Positions 1 through 9,924 of a DNA stretch of 9,924 bases are shown here, in pieces. Each line of letters starts with the position of its first letter. The first letter of the stretch is position 1. The notes beneath the pieces are model-generated. The model was not told the origin of the DNA and made no database searches. It saw only the letters and a list, made by a program, of their open reading frames with translations. Origin of the DNA: Candidatus Heimdallarchaeota archaeon (GTDB lineage Archaea > Asgardarchaeota > Heimdallarchaeia > Heimdallarchaeales > Heimdallarchaeaceae); contig JAUVXQ010000034.1 in assembly GCA_030603505.1 (NCBI GenBank), positions 1 through 9,924 on the forward strand. Reading direction: 5' to 3'. The position numbers and the translations under genes are program-made.

Positions 1-132
1 GCTTCCATTAGTAATAGTTAATACTATCTCTTCTTGTTGTGGAGGTTTTAATCCAAAGTATATTCCCAGTCCTACGCCTGTAACAATAACAGCAGTTAAT
101 AGAGAAACTACAACAATCCTCTTATTCAACAT
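1..132 (-). CDS. N-terminus of an exported or membrane-anchored protein, function unknown (cut by window edge)
   Basis: Reading leftward from the ATG at 132-130 there are 44 open codons running off the window. The protein begins MLNKRIVVVS. Two basic residues are followed by a hydrophobic helix at about residues 6-28, then a short Pro/Gln/Glu stretch (KPPQQEE) and the start of a probable beta strand (IVLTITNG). This is the form of a signal peptide or N-terminal membrane anchor with the functional domain outside the cell. No lipobox cysteine is visible. A TATA-like box lies about 26 bases upstream, so the transcript is probably leaderless, which supports this start. The gene diverges from the ABC importer operon and shares its intergenic region. 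Too little is visible to assign a family; a second binding protein or another surface protein would both fit. Confidence 0.6.
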   Translation of the reverse strand, partial: MLNKRIVVVSLLTAVIVTGVGLGIYFGLKPPQQEEIVLTITNGS

Positions 133-153
133 TATGAGGTGTCAGAATAAAGA

Positions 154-163
154 TTATATAAAG
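154..163 (-). promoter_or_regulatory. TATA-like box for the minus-strand gene at 132
   Basis: On the minus strand this reads CTTTATATAA, centred about 26 bases before the start codon at 132. In archaea transcription starts about 25 bases downstream of the TATA centre, so the mRNA would begin at or next to the ATG. A perfect 10-base palindrome abuts and slightly upstream-flanks it, at the position of the BRE element. Confidence 0.6.
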
Positions 164-173
164 ATTGTACAAT
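164..173. promoter_or_regulatory. Palindrome ATTGTACAAT next to a TATA box, possible operator
   Basis: This is a perfect 10-base inverted repeat directly upstream of the TATA-like box of the leftward gene, and about 25 bases before the TATA-like element of the rightward importer operon. A protein bound here would cover the leftward BRE/TATA and could also touch the rightward promoter. A second, looser palindrome (CAATT-TG-AATTG, 227-238) lies near the predicted transcription start of the operon. The palindromes are seen directly. The operator role is inference, and no regulator gene is in the window. Confidence 0.3.
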
Positions 174-195
174 TTGTCATAACAGAGCAAAACAA

Positions 196-204
196 TTAAT
201 ATAG
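196..204 (+). promoter_or_regulatory. TATA-like box for the ABC importer operon
   Basis: TTAATATAG lies about 55 bases before the ATG at 257. A start about 25 bases downstream would fall near 225, leaving a leader of about 30 bases. This fits the presence of a Shine-Dalgarno-like GAAGTGA at 245-251, in contrast to the leaderless genes elsewhere in the window. The assignment rests on position and composition only. Confidence 0.45.
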
Positions 205-256
205 TAAGTGAATAGTCCGTAACTCTCAATTTGAATTGTAACACGAAGTGAAAATA

Positions 257-1513
257 ATGGATAAAAAGAGGTTATTGAAGTCTTTAGCTATTACTGTACT
301 AATTCTTAGTACTATTTTCACAATAGCGTATTTCAGCGTAAGGAACTACAGTACTTCCCCAATTGAACTTGAAGTCTGGTTTACTTATGAAGGAGGCGAT
401 ATAATTAAAGAAAGGATAGCAAGCTTTGAGAATCTTCATCCTGACATCTCTGTAAAATTTCATGAACAACCATCATCTGGTTGGGTTGACAAGTTTGTTA
501 GTATAGCACAAACTGGTGAATCACCAGATGTTTTTCTAGCAAAAGGTTCATGGTTTGGTGAACTAGCTACTTTAGGGTACATCTACTCATTAACCGATTT
601 TATATCTCCTACTTTGGAATCTTCCTTTCTTCCTTTTTCAATAACAAGTTTAACTTATGAGAATGATTTATGGGGGTTGCCTTTATGGTTAGATTCGATT
701 TTACTATTTTATAATAAAGACCTCTTCAATCAGAATGGTTTGGAATATCCTTCAGCTAATTGGACTGAAATTGATCTGATTTTCGCAGCTAAAAACCTTA
801 CTGATTTATCAGAAACTCAAAGATACGGATTGGCGTGGAGCACGCTGTCTCCTTATATGTGGCCAGCTTTTCAATATGGATATGGACACGGTCCTCTTTA
901 TCAGAATCAGACAATTATCGTAAATGACACTGCTTCTGTTAACGCAATGGATTTTATTTACAAACTTAAGTATTATTATAATTGTGTAGGTTACGATGAT
1001 ACCAGTAGTGCTGCTACACAAGCTTTTCTTGAAAACAAGGCTTCAATGCTAATCTATGGAGGTTGGTTTGTACCTGTTCTTAAGGATGTTGGGTTTAACT
1101 ATGGTGTTGAAATACTCCCAAAAATATCTTCTACTGGTGAATTCATTTCCCCAATGGCTGAAGTAAAGGGATTTGGGATATCAAAAGACACTTTATATCC
1201 AGAAACATGTTTTGAACTTATTTCCTATCTAACTTCAACAGAGACTCAACAAGAACTTGTTAATGAAGAATATAAAATTCCCACAAAAAATGATTTAATA
1301 CTCTCTTCTACTGTGCAAAATAATCCAGACATCAAAAAACAAATTGAACAGATTTCACATAGCCAAAATTTCCCGCTCGATCCTATCTATGCAATTTATT
1401 CAGATTATATTAGAGCAGCTCTGCAATTTATATTGATAGATTTTCAAGATATTCAAGAAACATTAAATGCAGCACAACAAAACATTGATGCTAATAGAGG
1501 TGTTGATGGCTGA
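257..1513 (+). CDS. Extracellular solute-binding protein, family 1 (carbohydrate ABC importer)
   Basis: This is a 418-aa MalE-like receptor that should capture a sugar or related solute outside the cell and deliver it to the permease encoded next. Residues 1-28 form a basic N-terminus (MDKKRLLKS) and a hydrophobic helix. There is no lipobox cysteine, so the protein is either anchored by this helix or cleaved by a signal peptidase. Family features follow: ELEVWFTYEGG (about 37-47), the FENLHPDISVKF strand-helix (57-68), GESPDVFLAKGSWFGELATLG (87-107), LWGLPLWLDSILLFYNKDLF (138-157) and AFLENKASMLIYGGW (256-270). Its length is normal for the family. The ATG at 257 is preferred over an in-frame GTG at 248 because GAAGTGA (245-251) sits five bases before it as a Shine-Dalgarno-like site. 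The stop overlaps the ATG of the permease gene by 8 bases. Several Asn-X-Ser/Thr sequons suggest surface glycosylation. The substrate cannot be predicted. The family call is firm. Confidence 0.93.
   Translation: MDKKRLLKSLAITVLILSTIFTIAYFSVRNYSTSPIELEVWFTYEGGDIIKERIASFENLHPDISVKFHEQPSSGWVDKFVSIAQTGESPDVFLAKGSWFGELATLGYIYSLTDFISPTLESSFLPFSITSLTYENDLWGLPLWLDSILLFYNKDLFNQNGLEYPSANWTEIDLIFAAKNLTDLSETQRYGLAWSTLSPYMWPAFQYGYGHGPLYQNQTIIVNDTASVNAMDFIYKLKYYYNCVGYDDTSSAATQAFLENKASMLIYGGWFVPVLKDVGFNYGVEILPKISSTGEFISPMAEVKGFGISKDTLYPETCFELISYLTSTETQQELVNEEYKIPTKNDLILSSTVQNNPDIKKQIEQISHSQNFPLDPIYAIYSDYIRAALQFILIDFQDIQETLNAAQQNIDANRGVDG
1497..1502 (+). promoter_or_regulatory. Shine-Dalgarno site that places the permease start at ATG 1506
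   Basis: GAGGTG lies inside the end of the binding-protein gene, three bases before the ATG at 1506. It matches the CACCTCC tail typical of archaeal 16S rRNA. It supports translation of the permease from 1506, even though the reading frame opened there is not the frame of the long permease. Confidence 0.6.
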
Positions 1514-4500
1514 AATCACAAAAAAAAAAGAGACTATTTGTATTTTCTTTAACCTTTCTAACACTTTTCTTGGTTTCTACTTTACACACAACCGCTAATG
1601 CTCTAGAAGAGGATAGAGTAAACTTCTTTCCAAATCTTGATTTTTCAATTGTTGAAATCAAAGATAGGTATGTAATTTTGAATTGGAGTTTACAAACTGA
1701 AGTCAATTATAATTCATTTCAAATCGACCTTTATTCAGCTAAAACTAATCAAACAACAATTTGGTCTTTTATTTCTTTAAATCACTCTTCTGCATATTTT
1801 GAAGGGGATTTTTCTATAGTGAATTATACTCTTTCATCAGAAAATTTCAGAGCAGAAAAAATACCAACATCAAACTTCACAGTATATTCAGTTCCTTACA
1901 ATGCAGAAAGTGTCCAAATAAAAGTAACTGGATTAATTCCAGAAGAGAGTTATCTTCTAGAAATATCAATATCAAACATTTCTTTTGTTGAAGGAATTGT
2001 TCCTTATGTAATTGTTAGTTCTAGCTCTATTATATGGACATCTCCTTTATTTCAAACTCTTTCAAGTCTTCAACAAGCTTCTGTGCATTCTAGAACAGCA
2101 ACTGTTGTATCACTTCTGATAATTATTCTAGTTTTTCTCATCTTATTTGCTTTTATTGCGAAAAAGGACATTCCATTTAACAAGATAGCATACATCTTTA
2201 TTTTTCCAGCACTTTTTGCTTTAGCGTTACTTGAAGTGTACCCTATACTCTATGGGTTTGTTTTATCTTTTACTTCATATAACCTACAAAGAGGAGAGAC
2301 TCCAATTTTCAACGCTTTTGAAAATTATGCATATATCTCACAAAACCCTCATCTCTCAATAACTCTTACAACAACTTTAGTTTGGAGTACAGTCATTATT
2401 TTCTTCAAATTACTTTCTGGTTTTTTAATCGCATATTTTATACAATACAAAGTAAAAAGAAAGAAAGTATGGTACCTATCTATCTATATTCCGTGGGCAA
2501 TACCTGCTTACATTAAAATACTATCTTGGCGTAGTTTCTTTCATGGAAATGCAGGTCATTCACTTTTTAATTTGTTATTTGGAACAAGTGTTAATTTTGT
2601 ATCTCAACCGTATGTGACATTTTTTATAGCATCTTTTGTGGAAGTGATAGACTCTATACCTTTAATTACAACACTATTTTTAGGTGCTATGAGCAGTATA
2701 CCTAAAGAATTAATGGATATTGCTGAAGTTGATCAGATTAATGAAAGATCAAGAATTAGGCATATTGTGCTACCTCTGATAAAACCCGTAATGTTACCAG
2801 TACTAATACTTGAAATAATAAAGGCTTTTGGGAGTTTTAATGTGTCTTACTTGCTGACAAGAGGTTATCCCTTGCTATCTTACGGCACAAATGAGGCAGG
2901 AGTTGTCGGAGCAACAGACCTTTTTAGTACATTCACTTTTTACATGTTTTATCAGAGAAGAGAAGTAGGAATCTCAGCTGCTTATTCAACTATTATGAGC
3001 CTTTTAACACTCTTTTTTGTTTTAATTTGGATTAAAATGTCGAAGGGGACACAAAGTACTTTCCGTCCAAGAAAGAGTAAACAGAAGAAGAAAAATCAAT
3101 TGATTGTAGCTTTTGTATTATTTAGTCAGAGTATTGGATACTTCCTAGCAACAACCTATAATTTTCGTTATTTTGGCATTTATTGGAATAAAACAATTAG
3201 CTACACCATTGCAGTTTCATTCTTAATATGTGCAATTCTTATAGTTTCAAAGAAGAATAGAAGCTGGAAAATTTTCACGATTATTATTGCACTTGATCTA
3301 ATTTTATCATTATCACAATTCTTCTTTTATCAAATGTGGTTTGCTTTTAACTGGAATATATTTATTTCTGGAGTGATTTTCTACGTTATCAAAAATAACA
3401 ATGCTTTAAACGATACTAAAATTGGTTCCAAAAGTATTTCTAAAATAAAGGATTGGATAATTAGAGTAAGAAGGCAGATATTGTCTTCATTAAATCATCT
3501 AGATGAAAAATTTGTTGAAATCAATAGGTTCCATTCATTTTTAGGTCTAGAAATCTTTGTTGTTCTACTTTCCTGCTTATTGGATTCTACTAGTGATTGG
3601 ATTCTTTGGTTGGTTCTATCGATTCTAGTGTTTAATTTTATAATCAGTTTATTCATTACTCAAATCAAAACGTTTTCCTTTGTTCTTCAAGTAGGGTTAT
3701 GGATAACTTTACTTATACTACCTTATTCTTTAGGATGGAAAATAATTGAACTATTAATTTCAGTTATGCTTATATTTTATCTCTTAAAACATTTCATTAC
3801 TGAAAAAAGGTTTGTCAATAGATTTGTAAACTACCTGAATAGGTCTACTCTGAAGGTTTCTTTTACACATTTTCTTATGATAGGAATTATTGTTGTATCA
3901 ATAATCCCTCTTTGGAACGTTGTTTGGATAGCATTCTCTTCTGGTAATAAAATTGTCCCTGATTCTTTCTTTCCTAGTAATCCAACTTTCGAGAATTTCA
4001 AATTATTGTTTACAGAAGAGAAAATATATCTGAACTTTGGAAACTCTCTAATTATTTCCTTAGGCTCAGCTATTCTTTGTGTAGTTCTCACAATCCTAGC
4101 GGCTTATGCTTTCTCTCGATATGACTTTAAGCTGAAAAGTGAGATAATGGTGGGAGTATTCATTTTAAAGATGTTTACAGGTGTTTTAACCTTAATTCCC
4201 CTTTATCTTATTATGTTTAATCTTGGATTAATTGACACATACTTAGGTGTAATTATAGCTTATAGCACTCATACAATTCCAATTGCTCTTTGGTTAATAA
4301 AAGGATATTTTGATTCTATCCCTAAGGAACTTGATGAATCATCACAACTGATTGGGAATTCCTCATTCTTTACATTAAGAAAAGTCATTTTACCACTTGC
4401 TGGTCCTGCTATTGCAGTTGTATTTTTATTGAATTTCATTGCTACATGGAACGGTTTTCTGTTAGCTTTTGTTCTTCTACAATCAACTTTTAAATATACA

Positions 4501-4674
4501 TTACCAATTAAACTCTATTCCTTTATTGGATCAATTGAATCTAGCACACCACTCTGGGGACTTTTTGCAGCAGCTTCTGTTCTTGTTATTATTCCGCTAC
4601 TTATCCTTTTCATATTCCTTAGAAATTATCTGCTGAAAGGACTTGGTAGTCAAGCACAAATTAGAGAGGTTTAA
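1506..4674 (+). CDS. Fused MalF-MalG-type ABC sugar permease with an Fn3-like ectodomain; apparent +1 frameshift at an A-run near the N-terminus
   Basis: This is the membrane channel of a carbohydrate importer, with both permease subunits in one chain (about 1,055 aa once the frameshift is resolved). The uninterrupted frame starts at TTG 1570 (1,034 aa; numbering below counts from there). In order: the end of a signal peptide (1-10, ...TTANA); a beta-rich Fn3-like ectodomain (about 20-155, with ILNWS and a GLIPEESYLLEI tyrosine corner); a helix (177-197); a MalF-like unit (about 203-492) with the EAA loop at 379-406 (DIAEVDQ...LPLIKP); a basic linker; about eight extra hydrophobic segments (510-740); and a MalG-like unit (about 765-1034) with its EAA loop at 918-946 (ELDESSQLIGN...LPLAGP). 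The natural start, ATG 1506 with GAGGTG upstream, is one frame off. Deleting one A from the A10 run at 1520-1529 gives MAEITKKKRLFV, the start of a classic signal peptide. Coupling to the ATPase gene is tight (1 base). The family call is firm; the frameshift's nature is open. Confidence 0.88.
1520..1529 (+). other. Run of ten A: frameshift or slippage point in the permease start
   Basis: Reading from ATG 1506 in the given sequence yields only 30 codons (MAEITKKKETIC...) and stops at TAA 1596-1598. With nine A instead of ten, the same ATG reads into the 1,034-codon frame and supplies a basic N-region and hydrophobic core joined to STLHTTANA. In the long frame no ATG or GTG exists between the upstream stop (TGA 1504-1506) and TTG 1570. 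An eight-A run in the ATPase gene (4701-4708) causes no such break. The cause may be a homopolymer miscall, a real indel, or polymerase/ribosome slippage. Confidence 0.75.
4664..4670 (+). promoter_or_regulatory. Shine-Dalgarno site of the ABC ATPase gene
   Basis: GAGAGGT ends five bases before the ATG at 4676, and the permease stop codon (4672-4674) lies between them. It decides the ATPase start at 4676 over an in-frame GTG at 4643 that would overlap the permease. The layout favours translational coupling. Confidence 0.65.
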
Positions 4675-4675
4675 A

Positions 4676-5791
4676 ATGAAAATATCATTTAAGAAATTAG
4701 AAAAAAAATATGGAACATCAATTGCTTTAAACAAGGTAAGTGCTGTCCTATTAGATGGAAGTTTTACAGTTATTTTAGGACCTTCTGGAAGTGGAAAAAC
4801 AACATTATTAAGGCTTGTAGCTGGTTTGACATACCCAACAAGCGGAAAAGTTTTTTTCGATAACGAAGATATCACTAATAAACCTCCAAGAGACAGAAAT
4901 GTAGCGCTTGTTTTCCAAAATTTTCCACTTTTTCCACATATGACAGTTGAAGAAAATTTACGGTTCTCATTAGAAAATCAAAAATTTGGGAAAGTGTTCA
5001 AAAAAAGAGTATATTCTAATAAAGTAGTTGACGAGAAAGTGAATGAAGTCTTAGATATGCTTCAAATTGAAGAGCATAGATACAAATATCCAAACCAGAT
5101 GAGTGGAGGGGAGCAACAGAGAGTAGCAATAGGGAGGGAAGTTATACGAGAGCCAAGAGTTTTCCTTTTTGATGAACCACTTAGTAATATTGATGCAAGG
5201 CTCAGGTACGAAATGAGAACATGGATCAGAAAAATACATAAAATGCTAAAGAAGACAATGATTTATGTTACTCACGATCAGAACGAAGCTATGACTTTGG
5301 GAGATATTATCGTTTTACTTAAGGAGGGCGAAATTGAACAAATGGGTAAACCAGAGGAATTGTATTTTAATCCTAAAACAAAATTTGTTGCTACATTCAT
5401 AGGAAATTATCCCATGAATTTCTTACCGTTTGAAGTAAAACAAAATGAAATATGTATTTCAGGCACTAGTAATATAATAAATTCAGACAAAATACTTGAA
5501 AAAATAGAAAATCTGAATCTCAAAAAAGGAGAAATAGCTTTCAGAGCGGAATCCATTAGAGAATTTGACAAAGATAAACTGCTTGAAGAGAGTATGTTCT
5601 CATTAAAATGCAAAGTTACTGATATTGAAAAGCTTCTAGAACTGCAAATTCTGACTTTAAACATCGATATGTTTAATCTTATTTATGTTACAAAAACAAA
5701 AAAAGAGTTCAATATTAATGATAATATTACAGTTATCATTCATTCAGATGAAATTTATTACTTCAATTCTGAAGGTGTGAGGGTGAAGTAG
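4676..5791 (+). CDS. Sugar ABC importer ATP-binding protein (MalK/UgpC-like)
   Basis: This 371-aa ATPase powers the importer from the cytoplasmic side, presumably as a dimer on the two EAA loops of the fused permease. All nucleotide-binding motifs are intact: Walker A GPSGSGKTT (35-43), Q-loop Gln81 in FQNFPLFPHM, signature MSGGEQQR (142-149, with Met and Glu as common variants of LSGGQ), Walker B VFLFDEP (162-168) with catalytic Glu167, D-loop SNID, and switch His200 in VTHDQNEAM. Residues about 245-371 form the C-terminal TOBE/OB-like region of MalK-type proteins, which is divergent here. Length is normal for the family. The start at 4676 is chosen from the GAGAGGT site and the 1-base gap after the permease stop. 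It is the last gene of the operon. The ATPase class is certain; the sugar family follows from its length, C-terminal domain and neighbours. Confidence 0.95.
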   Translation: MKISFKKLEKKYGTSIALNKVSAVLLDGSFTVILGPSGSGKTTLLRLVAGLTYPTSGKVFFDNEDITNKPPRDRNVALVFQNFPLFPHMTVEENLRFSLENQKFGKVFKKRVYSNKVVDEKVNEVLDMLQIEEHRYKYPNQMSGGEQQRVAIGREVIREPRVFLFDEPLSNIDARLRYEMRTWIRKIHKMLKKTMIYVTHDQNEAMTLGDIIVLLKEGEIEQMGKPEELYFNPKTKFVATFIGNYPMNFLPFEVKQNEICISGTSNIINSDKILEKIENLNLKKGEIAFRAESIREFDKDKLLEESMFSLKCKVTDIEKLLELQILTLNIDMFNLIYVTKTKKEFNINDNITVIIHSDEIYYFNSEGVRVK

Positions 5792-5911
5792 ATGCAAATC
5801 CTCCAAAACTCTATCCAATTGATGTGACTTCTTGTATTAACTCAAAAAGTACAACAGAGTTCTAGAAATGAAAGATTAATTACAATCTCTTCTTGAAAAG
5901 TGAACTGCAAT

Positions 5912-5920
5912 CTTATATAT
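5912..5920 (+). promoter_or_regulatory. TATA-like box for the cation exchanger gene
   Basis: CTTATATAT is centred about 25 bases before the ATG at 5941, and no Shine-Dalgarno sequence precedes that ATG. This predicts a leaderless transcript and makes the exchanger a separate unit from the importer operon. The rest of the 149-base gap (5792-5940) holds no gene and no clear terminator. Confidence 0.65.
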
Positions 5921-5940
5921 TACATTAAATAAATAAAGTT

Positions 5941-7068
5941 ATGAGTTTCCTTAGAAAATTCAAAGATACTTTTCATACAAGTCTCTGGGAAGTTATAATA
6001 GGAATAATATTAGTTACTGTTTTTATAGTCTTACGTTTTACTTTGGATGACATTCCCCCATATATTATAATCCTAGGATTTATAGTAGGAGTTTGGCTAG
6101 CTTTTCGTCCTTCAGAATGGGCTGTTGAAGGTTTGGATAGTGCTTCAAAATATGTCGGGTTTTCTGATTACACCGCTGGGACAATTTCAAGTCTTGCTTC
6201 TAACCTTCCTGAAGCAGTTATAGCAATCTTCATGTTTATAGCAGGTCAACATATAATTGCAACAGTTACAATCTTATCAGCAGCAGGTTTCAATGCTATT
6301 ATTTTAGGAGTTGCTATTCTTATAGCTACTTTGAAGAAAAAAGGTCACGTTGATGTTCCAGAAGGTTTAGAGAAAAAAGAAGCTCCGATTATCCGATGGG
6401 CAATAGTTGCTTTACTCATGACAGTATGTTTTGGATTTATTGAGTATTTCCAGAAAAGTGATGAAATAGCTGTTTTGACTAAGCCAGTTGGTGGATTTCT
6501 AGCAGCAGGATACATCTTCTACCTTATCTACTTAGCTTTTTCTGAAAGAAAGGGTAAAAATAAAAAGCAGGAAGAAGGAGTTGAACGTGAAAAACCTAAA
6601 TTATCGAAACATATGACAATTATTATTCTGTTACTAGGTTTCTGTGGAATCATACTTGGTGGTGAAACACTTTCTTTCTGTGTTGAAGAATTAATACATG
6701 TTCAAAATATAGAACTGAAACCAGAATTTTTAGGTTTAATTTTAGGAGCAGCAGGAGCGTTGCCAGAGCACGGAATTGCATTAGTTTCCGCTGCCAAAGA
6801 TGAAGTAGAGATTGCTTTTGGAAATGCAATTGGAGGAATCTTACAATCCGCACTTCTAATCTTTGGTCTACTTGGAACAATCTTCGTTATTGAACTATCT
6901 CCTTTTGTACTACTACAACTAGCTGCTATTGCTGTAATACTGTGGTTCACTAAACGTTGCATCACAGATGACAAAAGATTTGATACGTTTGAAGGAATAA
7001 TGATACTTCTGCTACAATTCTTAGTGTTTGCTATACTCATTGAAGATGTACTTCTCGCGAGTCTGTGA
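5941..7068 (+). CDS. CaCA-family cation antiporter (sodium/calcium exchanger-like)
   Basis: This 375-aa multi-pass membrane protein should exchange a cation such as Ca2+ for Na+ or H+. It has the two-fold layout of the Ca2+/cation antiporter superfamily. Alpha-1 lies at about 77-130, with TAGTISSLASNLPEAVIAI and the ion-binding-type acid Glu91, then AAGFNAIILG. Alpha-2 lies at about 263-312, with GAAGALPEHGIALVSA and Glu276, then GNAIGGILQSALLIFG. A charged cytoplasmic loop (202-224, rich in Lys and Glu) separates the halves. About ten to eleven hydrophobic segments are visible. The Ser/Asn-rich GSN motif common in alpha-1 of exchangers is changed to GFN, and alpha-2 carries a Gln-Ser reminiscent of the CAX branch. 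The transported ion therefore cannot be read from sequence. The start is supported by the TATA box 25 bases upstream. A hairpin with T-tracts begins at the stop codon. The superfamily call is strong; the substrate is uncertain. Confidence 0.85.
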   Translation: MSFLRKFKDTFHTSLWEVIIGIILVTVFIVLRFTLDDIPPYIIILGFIVGVWLAFRPSEWAVEGLDSASKYVGFSDYTAGTISSLASNLPEAVIAIFMFIAGQHIIATVTILSAAGFNAIILGVAILIATLKKKGHVDVPEGLEKKEAPIIRWAIVALLMTVCFGFIEYFQKSDEIAVLTKPVGGFLAAGYIFYLIYLAFSERKGKNKKQEEGVEREKPKLSKHMTIIILLLGFCGIILGGETLSFCVEELIHVQNIELKPEFLGLILGAAGALPEHGIALVSAAKDEVEIAFGNAIGGILQSALLIFGLLGTIFVIELSPFVLLQLAAIAVILWFTKRCITDDKRFDTFEGIMILLLQFLVFAILIEDVLLASL

Positions 7069-7120
7069 AACCTCTTTTTTCTCTTTTTTATTTAAGAGGT
7101 TTTTTCACATTTTTCTTTCT
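7068..7120 (+). terminator. Hairpin plus T-tracts after the cation exchanger gene
   Basis: The nine-base arms AAACCTCTT (7068-7076) and AAGAGGTTT (7094-7102) are perfectly complementary across a 17-base T-rich loop, followed by further T runs (to 7105 and at 7110-7114). The left arm starts in the stop codon. T-tracts alone can end archaeal transcription; the hairpin would reinforce this or protect the 3' end. Confidence 0.6.
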
Positions 7121-7123
7121 GGG

Positions 7124-7132
7124 TTTTTATTA
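7124..7132 (+). promoter_or_regulatory. Weak TATA-like box for the 73-aa gene
   Basis: TTTTTATTA is centred about 28 bases before the ATG at 7156, a position consistent with a leaderless transcript. The match is loose and sits in a T-rich terminator region, so the call rests mainly on spacing. Confidence 0.35.
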
Positions 7133-7155
7133 CTTCTTGTTATCTAATTAGTAAT

Positions 7156-7377
7156 ATGAGTCTACTAGATTTAATTGAAGAAGAACTCAAATACAAGGAT
7201 ACAAGAATTTTCTACCATAAAAATGGTGAAATAATAGAATATGGTGATTCAGTTTTCAAAATCAGATTATACTCTAATCCCGAAAAACTGATTATTACTA
7301 CTTCAATTGAACGAGCATTTAAAATATTGAATTATGAAGAGATCCAAAGAAAAATAGGAGATAAGTGTGACATTTAA
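7156..7377 (+). CDS. Small protein of unknown function (73 aa)
   Basis: I do not recognise this protein. It begins MSLLDLIEEELKYKDTRIF and contains an acidic N-terminal helix (about 3-12). A likely beta-hairpin region (18-50, with the turn KNGEIIEYGDSVFKI) follows, then a short strand (LIITTS) and a C-terminal helix (about 52-68). There is no signal peptide, membrane segment or metal-binding cluster, so it should be a small soluble cytoplasmic protein. Support for coding: its own TATA-like box, an ATG with no competing start, amino-acid use and codon choice like the neighbouring genes, and a position that fills the gap between a terminator and the convergent aminotransferase gene (6 bases away at the 3' ends). 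It could be a lineage-specific gene. Confidence 0.6.
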   Translation: MSLLDLIEEELKYKDTRIFYHKNGEIIEYGDSVFKIRLYSNPEKLIITTSIERAFKILNYEEIQRKIGDKCDI

Positions 7378-7383
7378 AAGAAA

Positions 7384-8631
7384 TCAAATTTCACTGAAAA
7401 CTTTCTCTATTACACCTAAAGCCCATTCAAGCTCTTTCTTTGTTACAATTAACGGTGGAATAAAACGTATTGAAAATTCATGTGTCTCCTTTGCCAATAA
7501 GCCAACTGGTTCATTGTTCTTCATTGCTTCTGTATACGGACGAGATTTTGAATCCAGTTCAATTGCAACTAATAATCCTCTACCTCTAACTTCTTTGATT
7601 TTATCTGGGTGTTTAGCTTGAATACGTTTTAAACCCTTTATAAAATATGAACCTAAAATTTGTGCTCTTTCAGAGAAATCTTCTTTTTCAATTAGATCAA
7701 CAACAGCTTCTAAAACAGCCATACCTAAACTATTACCACCCCATGTCGAGCCATGAGATCCTGGGGTTAAAACATCCATTATTTCCCAGCTTGATAATAC
7801 CCCTGATACAGGATATATTCCTCCTCCTACAGCTTTTGCTACTAAAGTCATATCAGGTTTGACACTCTCAAAATCGCAAGCAAGTAGATTACCAGTTCTG
7901 CAAAAACCTGTCTGTATTTCATCGGCTATCATCAAGATGTTTTCTTTTTTGCATACTTTTTGTACTTTCTTAATGTATCCCTCTGGAGGAATAATAACGC
8001 CTGCTTCTCCTTGGATAGGTTCAAACAAGAATGCAACAGTGTTTTTTGTGATGGCTTTCTTTAAAGCATCAATATTACCAAAAGGAATGACTTTGAAACC
8101 TGGGGTTATTGGACCAAAACCGTCTTTTGCCTGAGGATCTGTTGAAAATCCTACTATTGTGATTGTTCGACCATGAAAATTATCCTCACATACAATAATC
8201 TCTGCTTTATTTTCTGCTACGCCTTTCTTCTCATATCCCCATCTTCTAGCTATTTTCAAAGCTGACTCTACTGCTTCTGCACCAGTATTCATAGGAAGAA
8301 ATGCTTCATAGTCTGTTAGTTCGCAGAGTTTTTTAGCTGCTTCTCCCATTGAATCATTGCAAAAAGCTCTAGATGTCAAGACAACTTTGCCCAATTGCTT
8401 TTTCAAAGCCCTAACGAGTTTTGGGTGTCTATGACCAAAATTTTGTGATGAATAAGCTGAAAGACAGTCAAGATATTTTTTTCCATCAACATCTTTGACC
8501 CAAGCACCTTTTGCTTTTCTAATAACAACAGAGATTGGGTTATAATTGTGAGCAGTCCATTTAGCATCAAGATCGAGATAAAATTTCGATTTGTTTTTGT
8601 CATTTTGCGCCATCAAAATCACTGATTCCAT
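7384..8631 (-). CDS. rocD: Ornithine--oxo-acid aminotransferase (class III, PLP-dependent)
   Basis: This 415-aa cytosolic enzyme should move the delta-amino group of ornithine to 2-oxoglutarate, giving glutamate semialdehyde (and so pyrroline-5-carboxylate) and linking arginine/ornithine to proline and glutamate. PLP residues are present: Lys266 (LVAKAVGGG) as the Schiff-base lysine, Asp237 in ADEIQTG, and Gly/Ala 117-118 in MNTGAEA. Ornithine-type rather than acetylornithine-type marks are the HNY tyrosine (Tyr30), LSAYSSQNFGH (57-67), LTSRAFCND (85-93), NFHGRT with Arg155, STDPQAKDGFGP (163-174) and the HGSTWGGN segment (293-300). Length matches the family. The ATG at 8631 is favoured over an in-frame ATG at 8613 because a TATA-like box lies 25 bases before it. 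The gene is divergent from the membrane-protein gene at 8750 and is monocistronic. Related class III enzymes acting on other omega-amines remain possible, but the motif match to ornithine aminotransferase is close. Confidence 0.92.
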   Translation of the reverse strand: MESVILMAQNDKNKSKFYLDLDAKWTAHNYNPISVVIRKAKGAWVKDVDGKKYLDCLSAYSSQNFGHRHPKLVRALKKQLGKVVLTSRAFCNDSMGEAAKKLCELTDYEAFLPMNTGAEAVESALKIARRWGYEKKGVAENKAEIIVCEDNFHGRTITIVGFSTDPQAKDGFGPITPGFKVIPFGNIDALKKAITKNTVAFLFEPIQGEAGVIIPPEGYIKKVQKVCKKENILMIADEIQTGFCRTGNLLACDFESVKPDMTLVAKAVGGGIYPVSGVLSSWEIMDVLTPGSHGSTWGGNSLGMAVLEAVVDLIEKEDFSERAQILGSYFIKGLKRIQAKHPDKIKEVRGRGLLVAIELDSKSRPYTEAMKNNEPVGLLAKETHEFSIRFIPPLIVTKKELEWALGVIEKVFSEI

Positions 8632-8650
8632 ATTCCTTTTTCATACTTGA

Positions 8651-8660
8651 TTTTTAAAAT
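8651..8660 (-). promoter_or_regulatory. TATA-like box for the ornithine aminotransferase gene
   Basis: On the minus strand this reads ATTTTAAAAA, centred about 25 bases before the ATG at 8631. That spacing predicts a leaderless or near-leaderless transcript and supports the upstream of the two possible Met starts. Confidence 0.5.
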
Positions 8661-8717
8661 TTTGGTGTGTACATTGATATCATTAAAAGAAAAAAATTCA
8701 GTAAAAAAATCGGAAAA

Positions 8718-8725
8718 CATTTAAG
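8718..8725 (+). promoter_or_regulatory. TATA-like box for the membrane protein gene
   Basis: ACATTTAAG-like sequence about 27 to 28 bases before the ATG at 8750, with no Shine-Dalgarno site next to that ATG. This fits a leaderless start and argues against the in-frame TTG at 8741, which would be too close to the box. The 118-base gap between 8631 and 8750 is a divergent promoter region. Confidence 0.5.
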
Positions 8726-8749
8726 AATTATCTTCTACAATTGATTTCA

Positions 8750-9715
8750 ATGTCAAAAAAGGAAGCAGATAAAACTAATGAAAAAATAAAACCTAAAAAA
8801 GAAAAGAAGCGAAACCGAAAAGAGTTCTGGAACAAGTTCTGGAGCAAAATTTGGAAAGGAGTAGTTTTATTTTTCAAAGGATTGTGGAAGTTTATTATTG
8901 GGATATTCAAATATATACTGTTCCCATTCTGGTATACAGGAGTTTTATTTGTCAAAACTTCAAAATTCCTGAAAAAACGAGGTGAAAATGCATTAACAGA
9001 CGAAGACAAGGGATATCTTTCAGTAATTCCTACGTTATTCTTTATGCTCAGTCTGTGCATTGTTATCATATTTCTCCTATTTTACCTTCAATTTTTCGAT
9101 GATGTAGTTGAAAAAATAACAGATGTTGGTTTTTGGGCGGCAGTAGGACAATTTTTCTTAACTATTGGAGAAGGAATTTGGTGGTTGTTAGGAGTTATCT
9201 TTGTAGATTTCCTTTGGTATATGATAATAGTCCCATTTGGAAACACCTTACAAGGACATCACTGGATATCAGCATTAATTCTACTTGTAGGAATTATTTT
9301 AATCTCTGGATTATCAATACTTCTCTATAACTTAGCTAAGACAAATAATTTTATGCGAAAAATAGGGCATGGAATCACAGTTGTAACTCTCTTCCCTAAG
9401 AAAATCCATGACAAAATACGTGAAGATGTAGTCTTAAAATATCTAATTGGTGAAAAACGCATCGAAACAAGATCAAAGAATTTCTTCTGGGTAACTGTCT
9501 TCATACAAACTCTCATAACATTTGTCTTCTTCATATTTGCGCTTGTATTGGGAATCTATAATTACGCAAAAGATATCTGGTCAGGGATTGAAGTTCTTCA
9601 ATTTTCTGTATATGCGTCACTTATACTCTTCCTTTTCGTAGGAATATTCTCTACATGGTTCTTTAATGCAGTCCTAGGAGTTTCAACAAAAGACTCTGAT
9701 CGATTCACAATATAA
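8750..9715 (+). CDS. Multi-pass membrane protein of unknown function (321 aa)
   Basis: I do not recognise a family. The N-terminus (about 1-25) is very rich in Lys, Glu and Arg and should be cytoplasmic. A stretch with tryptophan or phenylalanine roughly every fourth residue follows (FWNKFWSKIWKG, then FFKGLWKF; about 26-48), leading into a first hydrophobic segment (about 48-68). Further likely membrane helices lie near 92-115, 129-162 (one or two), 173-193, 247-270 and 286-308. A charged loop at about 197-245 (lysine/arginine rich) should be cytoplasmic. No catalytic or ion-binding motif is visible. The start at ATG 8750 is chosen from the TATA spacing. The gene diverges from ornithine aminotransferase, which might mean shared regulation but does not reveal function. 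T-rich sequence follows the stop codon. It is clearly coding; the function is open. Confidence 0.85.
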   Translation: MSKKEADKTNEKIKPKKEKKRNRKEFWNKFWSKIWKGVVLFFKGLWKFIIGIFKYILFPFWYTGVLFVKTSKFLKKRGENALTDEDKGYLSVIPTLFFMLSLCIVIIFLLFYLQFFDDVVEKITDVGFWAAVGQFFLTIGEGIWWLLGVIFVDFLWYMIIVPFGNTLQGHHWISALILLVGIILISGLSILLYNLAKTNNFMRKIGHGITVVTLFPKKIHDKIREDVVLKYLIGEKRIETRSKNFFWVTVFIQTLITFVFFIFALVLGIYNYAKDIWSGIEVLQFSVYASLILFLFVGIFSTWFFNAVLGVSTKDSDRFTI

Positions 9716-9717
9716 CA

Positions 9718-9754
9718 TCCTCTACTTTTTTCTTTTTCTTAACTGTTCTCTTAT
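9718..9754 (+). terminator. T-rich terminator region after the membrane protein gene
   Basis: Several T runs separated by C (CTACTTTTTTCTTTTTCTTA and on) follow directly after the stop codon at 9713-9715. Archaeal RNA polymerase can terminate at such T-tracts without a hairpin, and no stem is visible here. The next bases (9755-9839) contain no gene. Confidence 0.45.
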
Positions 9755-9760
9755 TTAGGT

Positions 9761-9788
9761 ATACATATTGCTAATACATATTTATTAG
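9761..9788. repeat. Two 9-base direct repeats overlapping a 6-base inverted repeat, possible regulatory site
   Basis: ATACATATT occurs at 9761-9769 and 9774-9782, a spacing of 13 bases. The second copy overlaps an inverted repeat CTAATA (9771-9776) / TATTAG (9783-9788) with a 6-base loop. The element lies about 20 to 45 bases upstream of the TATA-like box of the possible gene at 9840, where archaeal activators often bind. A binding role is inference, and short repeats are expected by chance in A+T-rich DNA. Confidence 0.25.
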
Positions 9789-9806
9789 TACTTCCGAATT
9801 AACGCA

Positions 9807-9815
9807 AAATTTTAG
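9807..9815 (+). promoter_or_regulatory. TATA-like box for a possible gene at 9840
   Basis: AAATTTTAG is centred about 29 bases before the ATG at 9840, within the range seen for the other leaderless genes in this window. Support is from position only. Confidence 0.3.
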
Positions 9816-9839
9816 GGTCAAAGTGCCGACAAAATTATT

Positions 9840-9924
9840 ATGAACAAAAACATACTAAGATGTTTAAAGAATCTTGTCCAGCAACTTAGACCCTGTAGAG
9901 AAGTAGTTGGAACTTCCTTAAAAA
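9840..9924 (+). CDS. Possible N-terminus of a protein, function unknown (cut by window edge)
   Basis: ATG 9840 opens a frame of 28 codons with no stop before the window ends. The peptide begins MNKNILRCLKNLVQQLRPC, a basic amphipathic helix with two cysteines. A TATA-like box 29 bases upstream fits the leaderless pattern of this window. The stretch is short, and one minus-strand frame is also open here, so the strand is not certain. No family can be suggested. Confidence 0.35.
   Translation, partial: MNKNILRCLKNLVQQLRPCREVVGTSLK

Follow-up and report, generated by a model that had tools for sequence, protein, structure and literature searches.

In E. coli MalFGK2 and in the mycobacterial LpqY-SugABC system, both of the CUT1 kind, the permease of a type I ATP-binding cassette (ABC) importer is encoded by two genes. 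In FbpB of the Thermus ferric importer FbpBC both permease units lie in one chain, and ThiP is another fused type I permease. According to the accessible part of a survey of archaeal gene fusions, ABC transporters form the largest clusters (PMC11237513). For E. coli, the accessible parts of two further papers describe a maltose site built by MalF residues, with MalG Q129 and E229 being met when maltose moves aside (PMC3150292), and name MalF Y383, Y325, F436, N376, S433 and N440 (near the periplasmic gate) as well as MalG E229 (PMC8134467). Here we describe an open reading frame (ORF) of a Candidatus Heimdallarchaeota archaeon that contains a MalF-like and a MalG-like permease unit. It lies in a stretch of 9,924 nucleotides (contig JAUVXQ010000034.1, positions 1 to 9,924; hereafter the window), in which all features discussed below are on the forward strand. 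We consider it likely that a CUT1 (MalFGK2-like) importer of type I is encoded here, with both permease halves in one polypeptide and with a solute unlike maltodextrin.

Two permease units in one conserved frame

The permease ORF (1570..4674) is a single open frame of 1034 amino acids, counted from a mechanically assigned TTG at 1570. Pfam matched BPD_transp_1 in two stretches of it, as the initial annotation had expected of MalF-type and MalG-type permeases fused in one continuous frame. A candidate FN3-like beta-sandwich ectodomain (residues 24-157; 1639..2040) and a membrane anchor helix (residues 167-199; 2068..2166) precede the MalF-like permease unit (residues 205-495; 2182..3054), which is followed by a linker (residues 496-764; 3055..3861) in which eight membrane helices are predicted, four on either side of an amphipathic helix, and by the MalG-like permease unit (residues 767-1029; 3868..4656). 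Translation and alignment placed one EAA-type loop in each half, at residues 379-406 (2704..2787) and 918-946 (4321..4407), in agreement with the positions claimed before. The matches to the NCBIfam models for MalF (residues 258-493, 77.8 bits) and MalG (residues 760-1027, 151 bits) were below the NCBI cut-offs of 392 and 261 bits, respectively; both halves thus miss the equivalog level for MalF and MalG proper. The earlier statement that one binding-protein gene and one ATPase gene flank the permease also held. Upstream lies a MalE-like gene for an extracellular solute-binding protein with an N-terminal hydrophobic segment (248..1513; Pfam SBP_bac_1/8, with SBP_bac_1 at 2.6e-31), downstream a MalK-like ATPase gene with a likely ATG start (4676..5791; Pfam ABC_tran). 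The N-terminal ectodomain, the linker helices and a glutamine at residue 389 (see below) are features beyond those first noted.

To judge whether the fusion is genuine we compared the best 80 of 129 loci. Both halves lie in one open frame, with no stop and restart, in 19 out of 19 Asgard loci (L001-L019), 18 of which are titled Heimdallarchaeota and one (L015) 'Asgard group archaeon'; L010 and L016 are cut by contig ends. The same holds for three DHVE2-type loci, namely L020 and L021 (titled DHVE2 group) and L022 (Euryarchaeota), whereas the two halves occupy separate frames in the other 58 loci, with the MalF of L078 itself being split. The window is 95% identical to L001 (titled Heimdallarchaeota) over 9.8 kb, and homologues of the fused permease are 47-95% identical. 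In all eight pairs compared (seven Heimdall, one DHVE2) the linker showed dN/dS values of 0.19-0.47, indicating purifying selection; these values exceed those of the permease cores in every pair, yet stay well below 1, and the highest (pair L004-L005) is based on a very small number of synonymous changes (dS 0.024). As judged from these substitution patterns, the linker is translated and under selection. That the frame is an artefact of assembly or sequencing, made from two separate genes, is next to impossible: although the titles of the locus records nearly all denote metagenome-assembled genomes, we found no supporting evidence, and the single frame in all 19 Asgard loci, the range of identity among the homologues and the selection on the linker rule such a join out.

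A single chain can fairly be expected to fix the stoichiometry of the heterodimer. The even number of linker helices would return the chain to the cytoplasm and thereby place the MalG unit in its usual orientation. It is quite improbable that fused chains dimerise or that the linker is cleaved, in which case the fusion would not determine which halves pair. The linker is long and less constrained, and pairing within one chain is itself deduced, which would suit such an arrangement; the even helix count and the similar length of the linker in the window and 18 Asgard loci argue against it. L018, which was left out of the length comparison, has the first ~90 residues of the MalG unit doubled in tandem in a frame of 1164 amino acids (4048-7539; P0003). 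Folded alone, the linker gave a model with a pLDDT of 76.2 and a pTM of 0.41 that matched nothing in the PDB better than E 1.1; such a model does not show a new fold. No significant match was obtained between the two linker halves, between the linker and the MalG extension of Poseidoniales, or between the linker and the long N-terminal extensions of other MalG-like proteins of the class, the latter being a weak set of seven with one unrelated L103 ORF.

Distribution and fused relatives

Full-length homologues, which had been proposed as a check, were recovered readily. Among 94 homologous proteins, 39 (P0001-P0038 and P0040) are single chains that comprise the two halves of this family, a few in shortened form; both halves were also detected in P0048 and four iron-permease-type proteins. 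P0048 is a compact and very distant MalF-MalG fusion of 593 amino acids. P0015, one of the 39, is titled Thorarchaeota, a misfit with a Heimdall-only spread unless it is misassigned. Genome searches at 1e-60 found the fused permease in 19 of the 58 genomes of L001's class, and the same 19 were the only ones among 227 in its phylum; ten more genomes of the class matched via unfused relatives only. DHVE2 is placed in Thermoplasmatota. In a sample of 300 genomes from the class to which L020's genome belongs, five matched at 1e-100, three of them L020-like (two already known) and two with frames of 900-905 amino acids. No single stretch of any plasmid record covers 80% of the query.

The ectodomain and anchor of the Heimdall fusions are homologous to those of the Thermoplasmatota fusions (hhalign E 6e-8 and 1.2e-7), and the two Thermoplasmatota groups match each other in this region at E 1.1e-10. 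For the linker, the same comparison, run with P0040 left out of the linker model, gave hhalign values of E 0.0087 to 0.04 (0.0087 and 0.025 against the DHVE2-class fusions), too weak to establish homology, and HMMER returned no significant match between Heimdall and Thermoplasmatota linkers. A clade comprising all three fused groups was not rejected (AU p 0.531 for MalF, 0.155 for MalG; P0048, which has a very long branch, was left out), while the free MalG tree placed the Heimdall rows beside two unfused Firmicutes-type MalG rows with a support of 92/91. The trees do not distinguish between one and several fusion events; a single event may have been followed by transfer or loss.

In L020 the gene upstream of the fused permease is one frame of 1795 amino acids with GH57, Glucodextran_C and binding-protein matches in Pfam. 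Frames of 1795-1805 amino acids occur in L020 (2344-7728), L021 (2344-7728) and L022 (2536-7950); that of L020 joins an enzyme to an importer receptor, and the binding-protein part was matched in those of L021 and L022. In L110, which comes from the same genome as L097, separate genes for GH57 and the binding protein lie ahead of the fused permease. The systems of L020 and L110 look like maltodextrin uptake. Loci L103-L108, from other genomes of L001's class, carry separate MalG-like frames of 773-828 amino acids with N-terminal extensions of ~500 amino acids. A binding protein and a MalF unit share one chain in L025 (6324-8939), in many Poseidoniales loci and in P0041, P0055 and P0061.

Cavity positions, coupling loops and the solute

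Residues of the transport cavity were mapped by pairwise alignments to E. coli MalF and MalG and by MAFFT, comparing 48 distinct MalF halves of the Heimdall clade with 118 chosen others and 45 MalG halves with 176. We chose the comparison rows according to score and range of ids, with duplicates counted once and weaker matches dropped; MalF matches had to reach 60 bits and to come from named loci and proteins, MalG matches had to reach 100 bits. Related rows are not independent, and the counts therefore reflect fixation in one clade and not repeated events.

Four MalF positions carry charges in the Heimdall clade. At E. coli MalF N376 and L379 the window has E358 and D361 (2641..2652), with Glu in 48/48 and Asp in 45/48 Heimdall halves against Asn in 106/118 and Leu in 101/118 others. 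At S433 and F436 it has E415 and K418 (2812..2823), each fixed in 48/48, while the others have Gly (69) or Ser (37) at the former and Trp (105/118) at the latter position. The position of Y383 holds Leu (45/48) or Phe (3/48) instead of the Phe found in 110/118 others, and that of N440 holds Ser (48/48) instead of Met (94/118). The position of Y325 is unchanged, with an aromatic residue kept (Trp in 48/48 and in 112/118 others); seven residues further on, K316 is present in 48/48 Heimdall halves, a position charged in none of the others. In the MalG half, K867 (4168..4170) stands at Q129, with Lys in 44/45 and Arg in 1/45 against Gln in 176/176 elsewhere, and G962 (4453..4455) stands at E229, with Gly in 45/45 against Glu (162) or Asp (14) in the 176 others; the position of P132 is Thr in 45/45 and Pro in 176/176, respectively. 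We also take MalF L379, G380 and N437 to be maltose-contact positions. Four distinct DHVE2-type and two other Thermoplasmatota MalF halves keep Asn, Leu, Gly and Trp at N376, L379, G380 and F436. The side chains of the charged residues are predicted from the alignments to face the cavity. The first description of the system as MalFGK2-type stands for its architecture; of the maltose-contact positions, the Heimdall clade has lost most.

The coupling loops are altered as well. Within the EAA-type loop of the MalF half, the conserved Gly is replaced by Gln (Q389 in the window; 2734-2736) in 48/48 Heimdall sequences, compared to Gly in 115/118 others and Arg in three. The loop of the MalG half keeps its Gly (45/45), and the Asp before it has become Met (42/45) or Ile (3/45), a position held by Asp (162) or Glu (14) elsewhere.

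Because conserved charges rebuild these cavity positions, the Heimdall solute is probably not maltodextrin, and a charged, zwitterionic or otherwise different molecule appears more likely. That the system is an ordinary maltodextrin importer, fused by happenstance, is by comparison unlikely. It would agree with the binding protein and the ATPase, as the solved relatives listed for the former are mostly maltose- or maltodextrin-binding proteins or fusions of these and the best ones of the latter are maltose or sugar ATPases, with the GH57 genes next to the fused Thermoplasmatota permeases and with the charged cavity positions of a few bacterial CUT1 permeases. However, the charges and the Leu at Y383 are fixed or nearly so in 48 sequences, both MalG residues met by maltose are exchanged, and no glycoside hydrolase was detected among the six window genes scanned with Pfam. 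In E. coli, mutations of F436 and Y383 cut transport by more than 90%, according to the accessible part of PMC8134467.

The sequences show the single frame, its conservation and the order of the domains; from these we infer the complex, its stoichiometry and topology, the transport and the class of substrate. The importer with a solute unlike maltodextrin would work as follows. An anchored binding protein would pass the solute to a chain running from the FN3-like ectodomain and anchor helix through the MalF unit and a linker of about eight membrane helices to the MalG unit, and two copies of the adjacent ATPase would dock on the two coupling loops and drive the cycle. A more far-reaching proposal, which we put forward only tentatively and would not favour over its negation, is that the fusion was accompanied by a wholesale rebuilding of the cavity, with acidic and basic residues replacing the sugar-stacking site, that a charged or zwitterionic solute is imported and that ATP coupling has become asymmetric. 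According to this proposal, and with the same reserve, each coupling loop would have lost a different half of an Asp-Gly pair, and a single chain would favour asymmetric coupling because its halves are always paired.

Several observations weigh against the importer reading with a solute unlike maltodextrin. Charged residues also occur in 3, 8, 4 and 2 of the 118 other MalF halves at the positions of N376, L379, S433 and F436; P0102 and P0118 have charges at each of the four and P0112 at two, and the source names P0118 a sugar permease. The binding protein keeps Y203, W273 and Y384 in 18/18 sequences, which suits a carbohydrate ligand. The Gln in the MalF-half loop together with the Met or Ile in the MalG-half loop may weaken coupling. 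The model of the whole chain is modest (pLDDT 67.4, pTM 0.54). Finally, neither the window (1507-1570) nor L001 (near 7941) has an in-frame ATG, GTG or TTG before a signal-peptide-like stretch, recognised by eye, at the beginning of the permease frame.

This stretch lies in the stop-to-stop frame at 1507..1569. Translation probably does not begin at the TTG at 1570, because the frame is open from 1507, the signal-peptide-like stretch lies upstream, full-length relatives are longer (mostly 1047-1065 amino acids) and L001 lacks that TTG. A usual start codon is present in the 16 other Asgard loci that are not cut by contig ends, and an A-run in this region differs in length between the window and L001. 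The missing start in these two may reflect an assembly error, an unusual start or slippage.

The three binding-protein aromatics presumably correspond to Y155, W230 and W340 of the E. coli maltose-binding protein (MBP). Residues that we take to be W62, D65, R66 and E153 of MBP are not kept, with the register of W62-R66 being uncertain by ~1 residue. Both the binding-protein aromatics and the charged cavity would be accounted for by a ligand that is a glycan, or resembles one, and bears charged groups. P0102 and P0118 are unfused, bacterial-type MalF relatives and might serve as a guide to the class of the Heimdall substrate.

The six Heimdall loci compared have genes for the binding protein, the fused permease and the ATPase in this order, then, in five of the six, a long ORF, and finally an exchanger and an aminotransferase, recognised by their likeness to window genes. 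The system could alternatively be a nutrient sensor (transceptor) instead of an importer, with the altered loops and cavity, the FN3-like ectodomain and a multi-PAS gene that adjoins it in relatives as its elements. A second ORF of more than 800 amino acids lies downstream of malK in 14/19 Asgard loci; it is absent from the window, L001 and L012, while L004, L008 and L010 hold little sequence there. Those of L002 (7480-12045) and L011 (12298-15969), the two tested by Pfam, are PAS-domain arrays. A sensor is nevertheless very improbable: the window and L001 have no such PAS gene, and the ATPase translation contains what we take to be the Walker A, MSGGEQQR signature, Walker B and VTHD motifs in intact form.

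Relation to known systems

The accessible part of an Asgard transporter survey (PMC7997004) does not mention a MalF-MalG fusion in Heimdallarchaeota, and we recognised no description of a fused MalF-MalG permease among the papers listed by the literature searches, which covered mostly titles and the beginnings of abstracts, with few subscription papers and preprints. The locus adds a recurrent one-gene permease of the best studied importer type in Asgard archaea and a natural single-chain form of the heterodimer whose halves can be modified one at a time. With conserved charges swapped in at published maltose-contact positions, a change of substrate can be tested directly. The source name 'arabinogalactan oligomer/maltooligosaccharide transport system permease protein', which some relatives bear, may mislead.

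The system resembles MalFGK2 and LpqY-SugABC in the fold and order of its permease units, its MBP-like binding protein and its MalK-like ATPase. Unlike these, it has one permease gene, an added ectodomain and linker, and changed cavity and EAA residues. The order of ectodomain, anchor, MalF, linker and MalG recurs in the fused permeases recovered here from DHVE2 and from two further genomes in the class of DHVE2 (L020-L022, L096-L098, P0040). They differ from the Heimdall fusions by their usual cavity residues and a GH57 neighbour (L020, L110), and P0040 is 29-30% identical. Poseidoniales have related CUT1 permeases in which transporter parts are also fused, as recognised by Pfam in L025 and by length and binding-protein match in others; there, the binding protein is joined to MalF in many but not all loci, and the extended MalG is a separate gene. 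FbpB (PDB 9j4r) likewise has both permease units in one chain. It belongs to an iron system, and the sequence relation is weak, with iron permeases matching at E 3.7e-6 or worse; at 490 residues, the solved chain would be too short to accommodate a comparable linker and ectodomain. The SBP_bac_1/8 binding protein, nearest to maltodextrin-binding proteins, does not indicate an iron or thiamine system. Fused type I permeases were known before, and the architecture described here, with its ectodomain, linker and charged cavity, is a variant of them.
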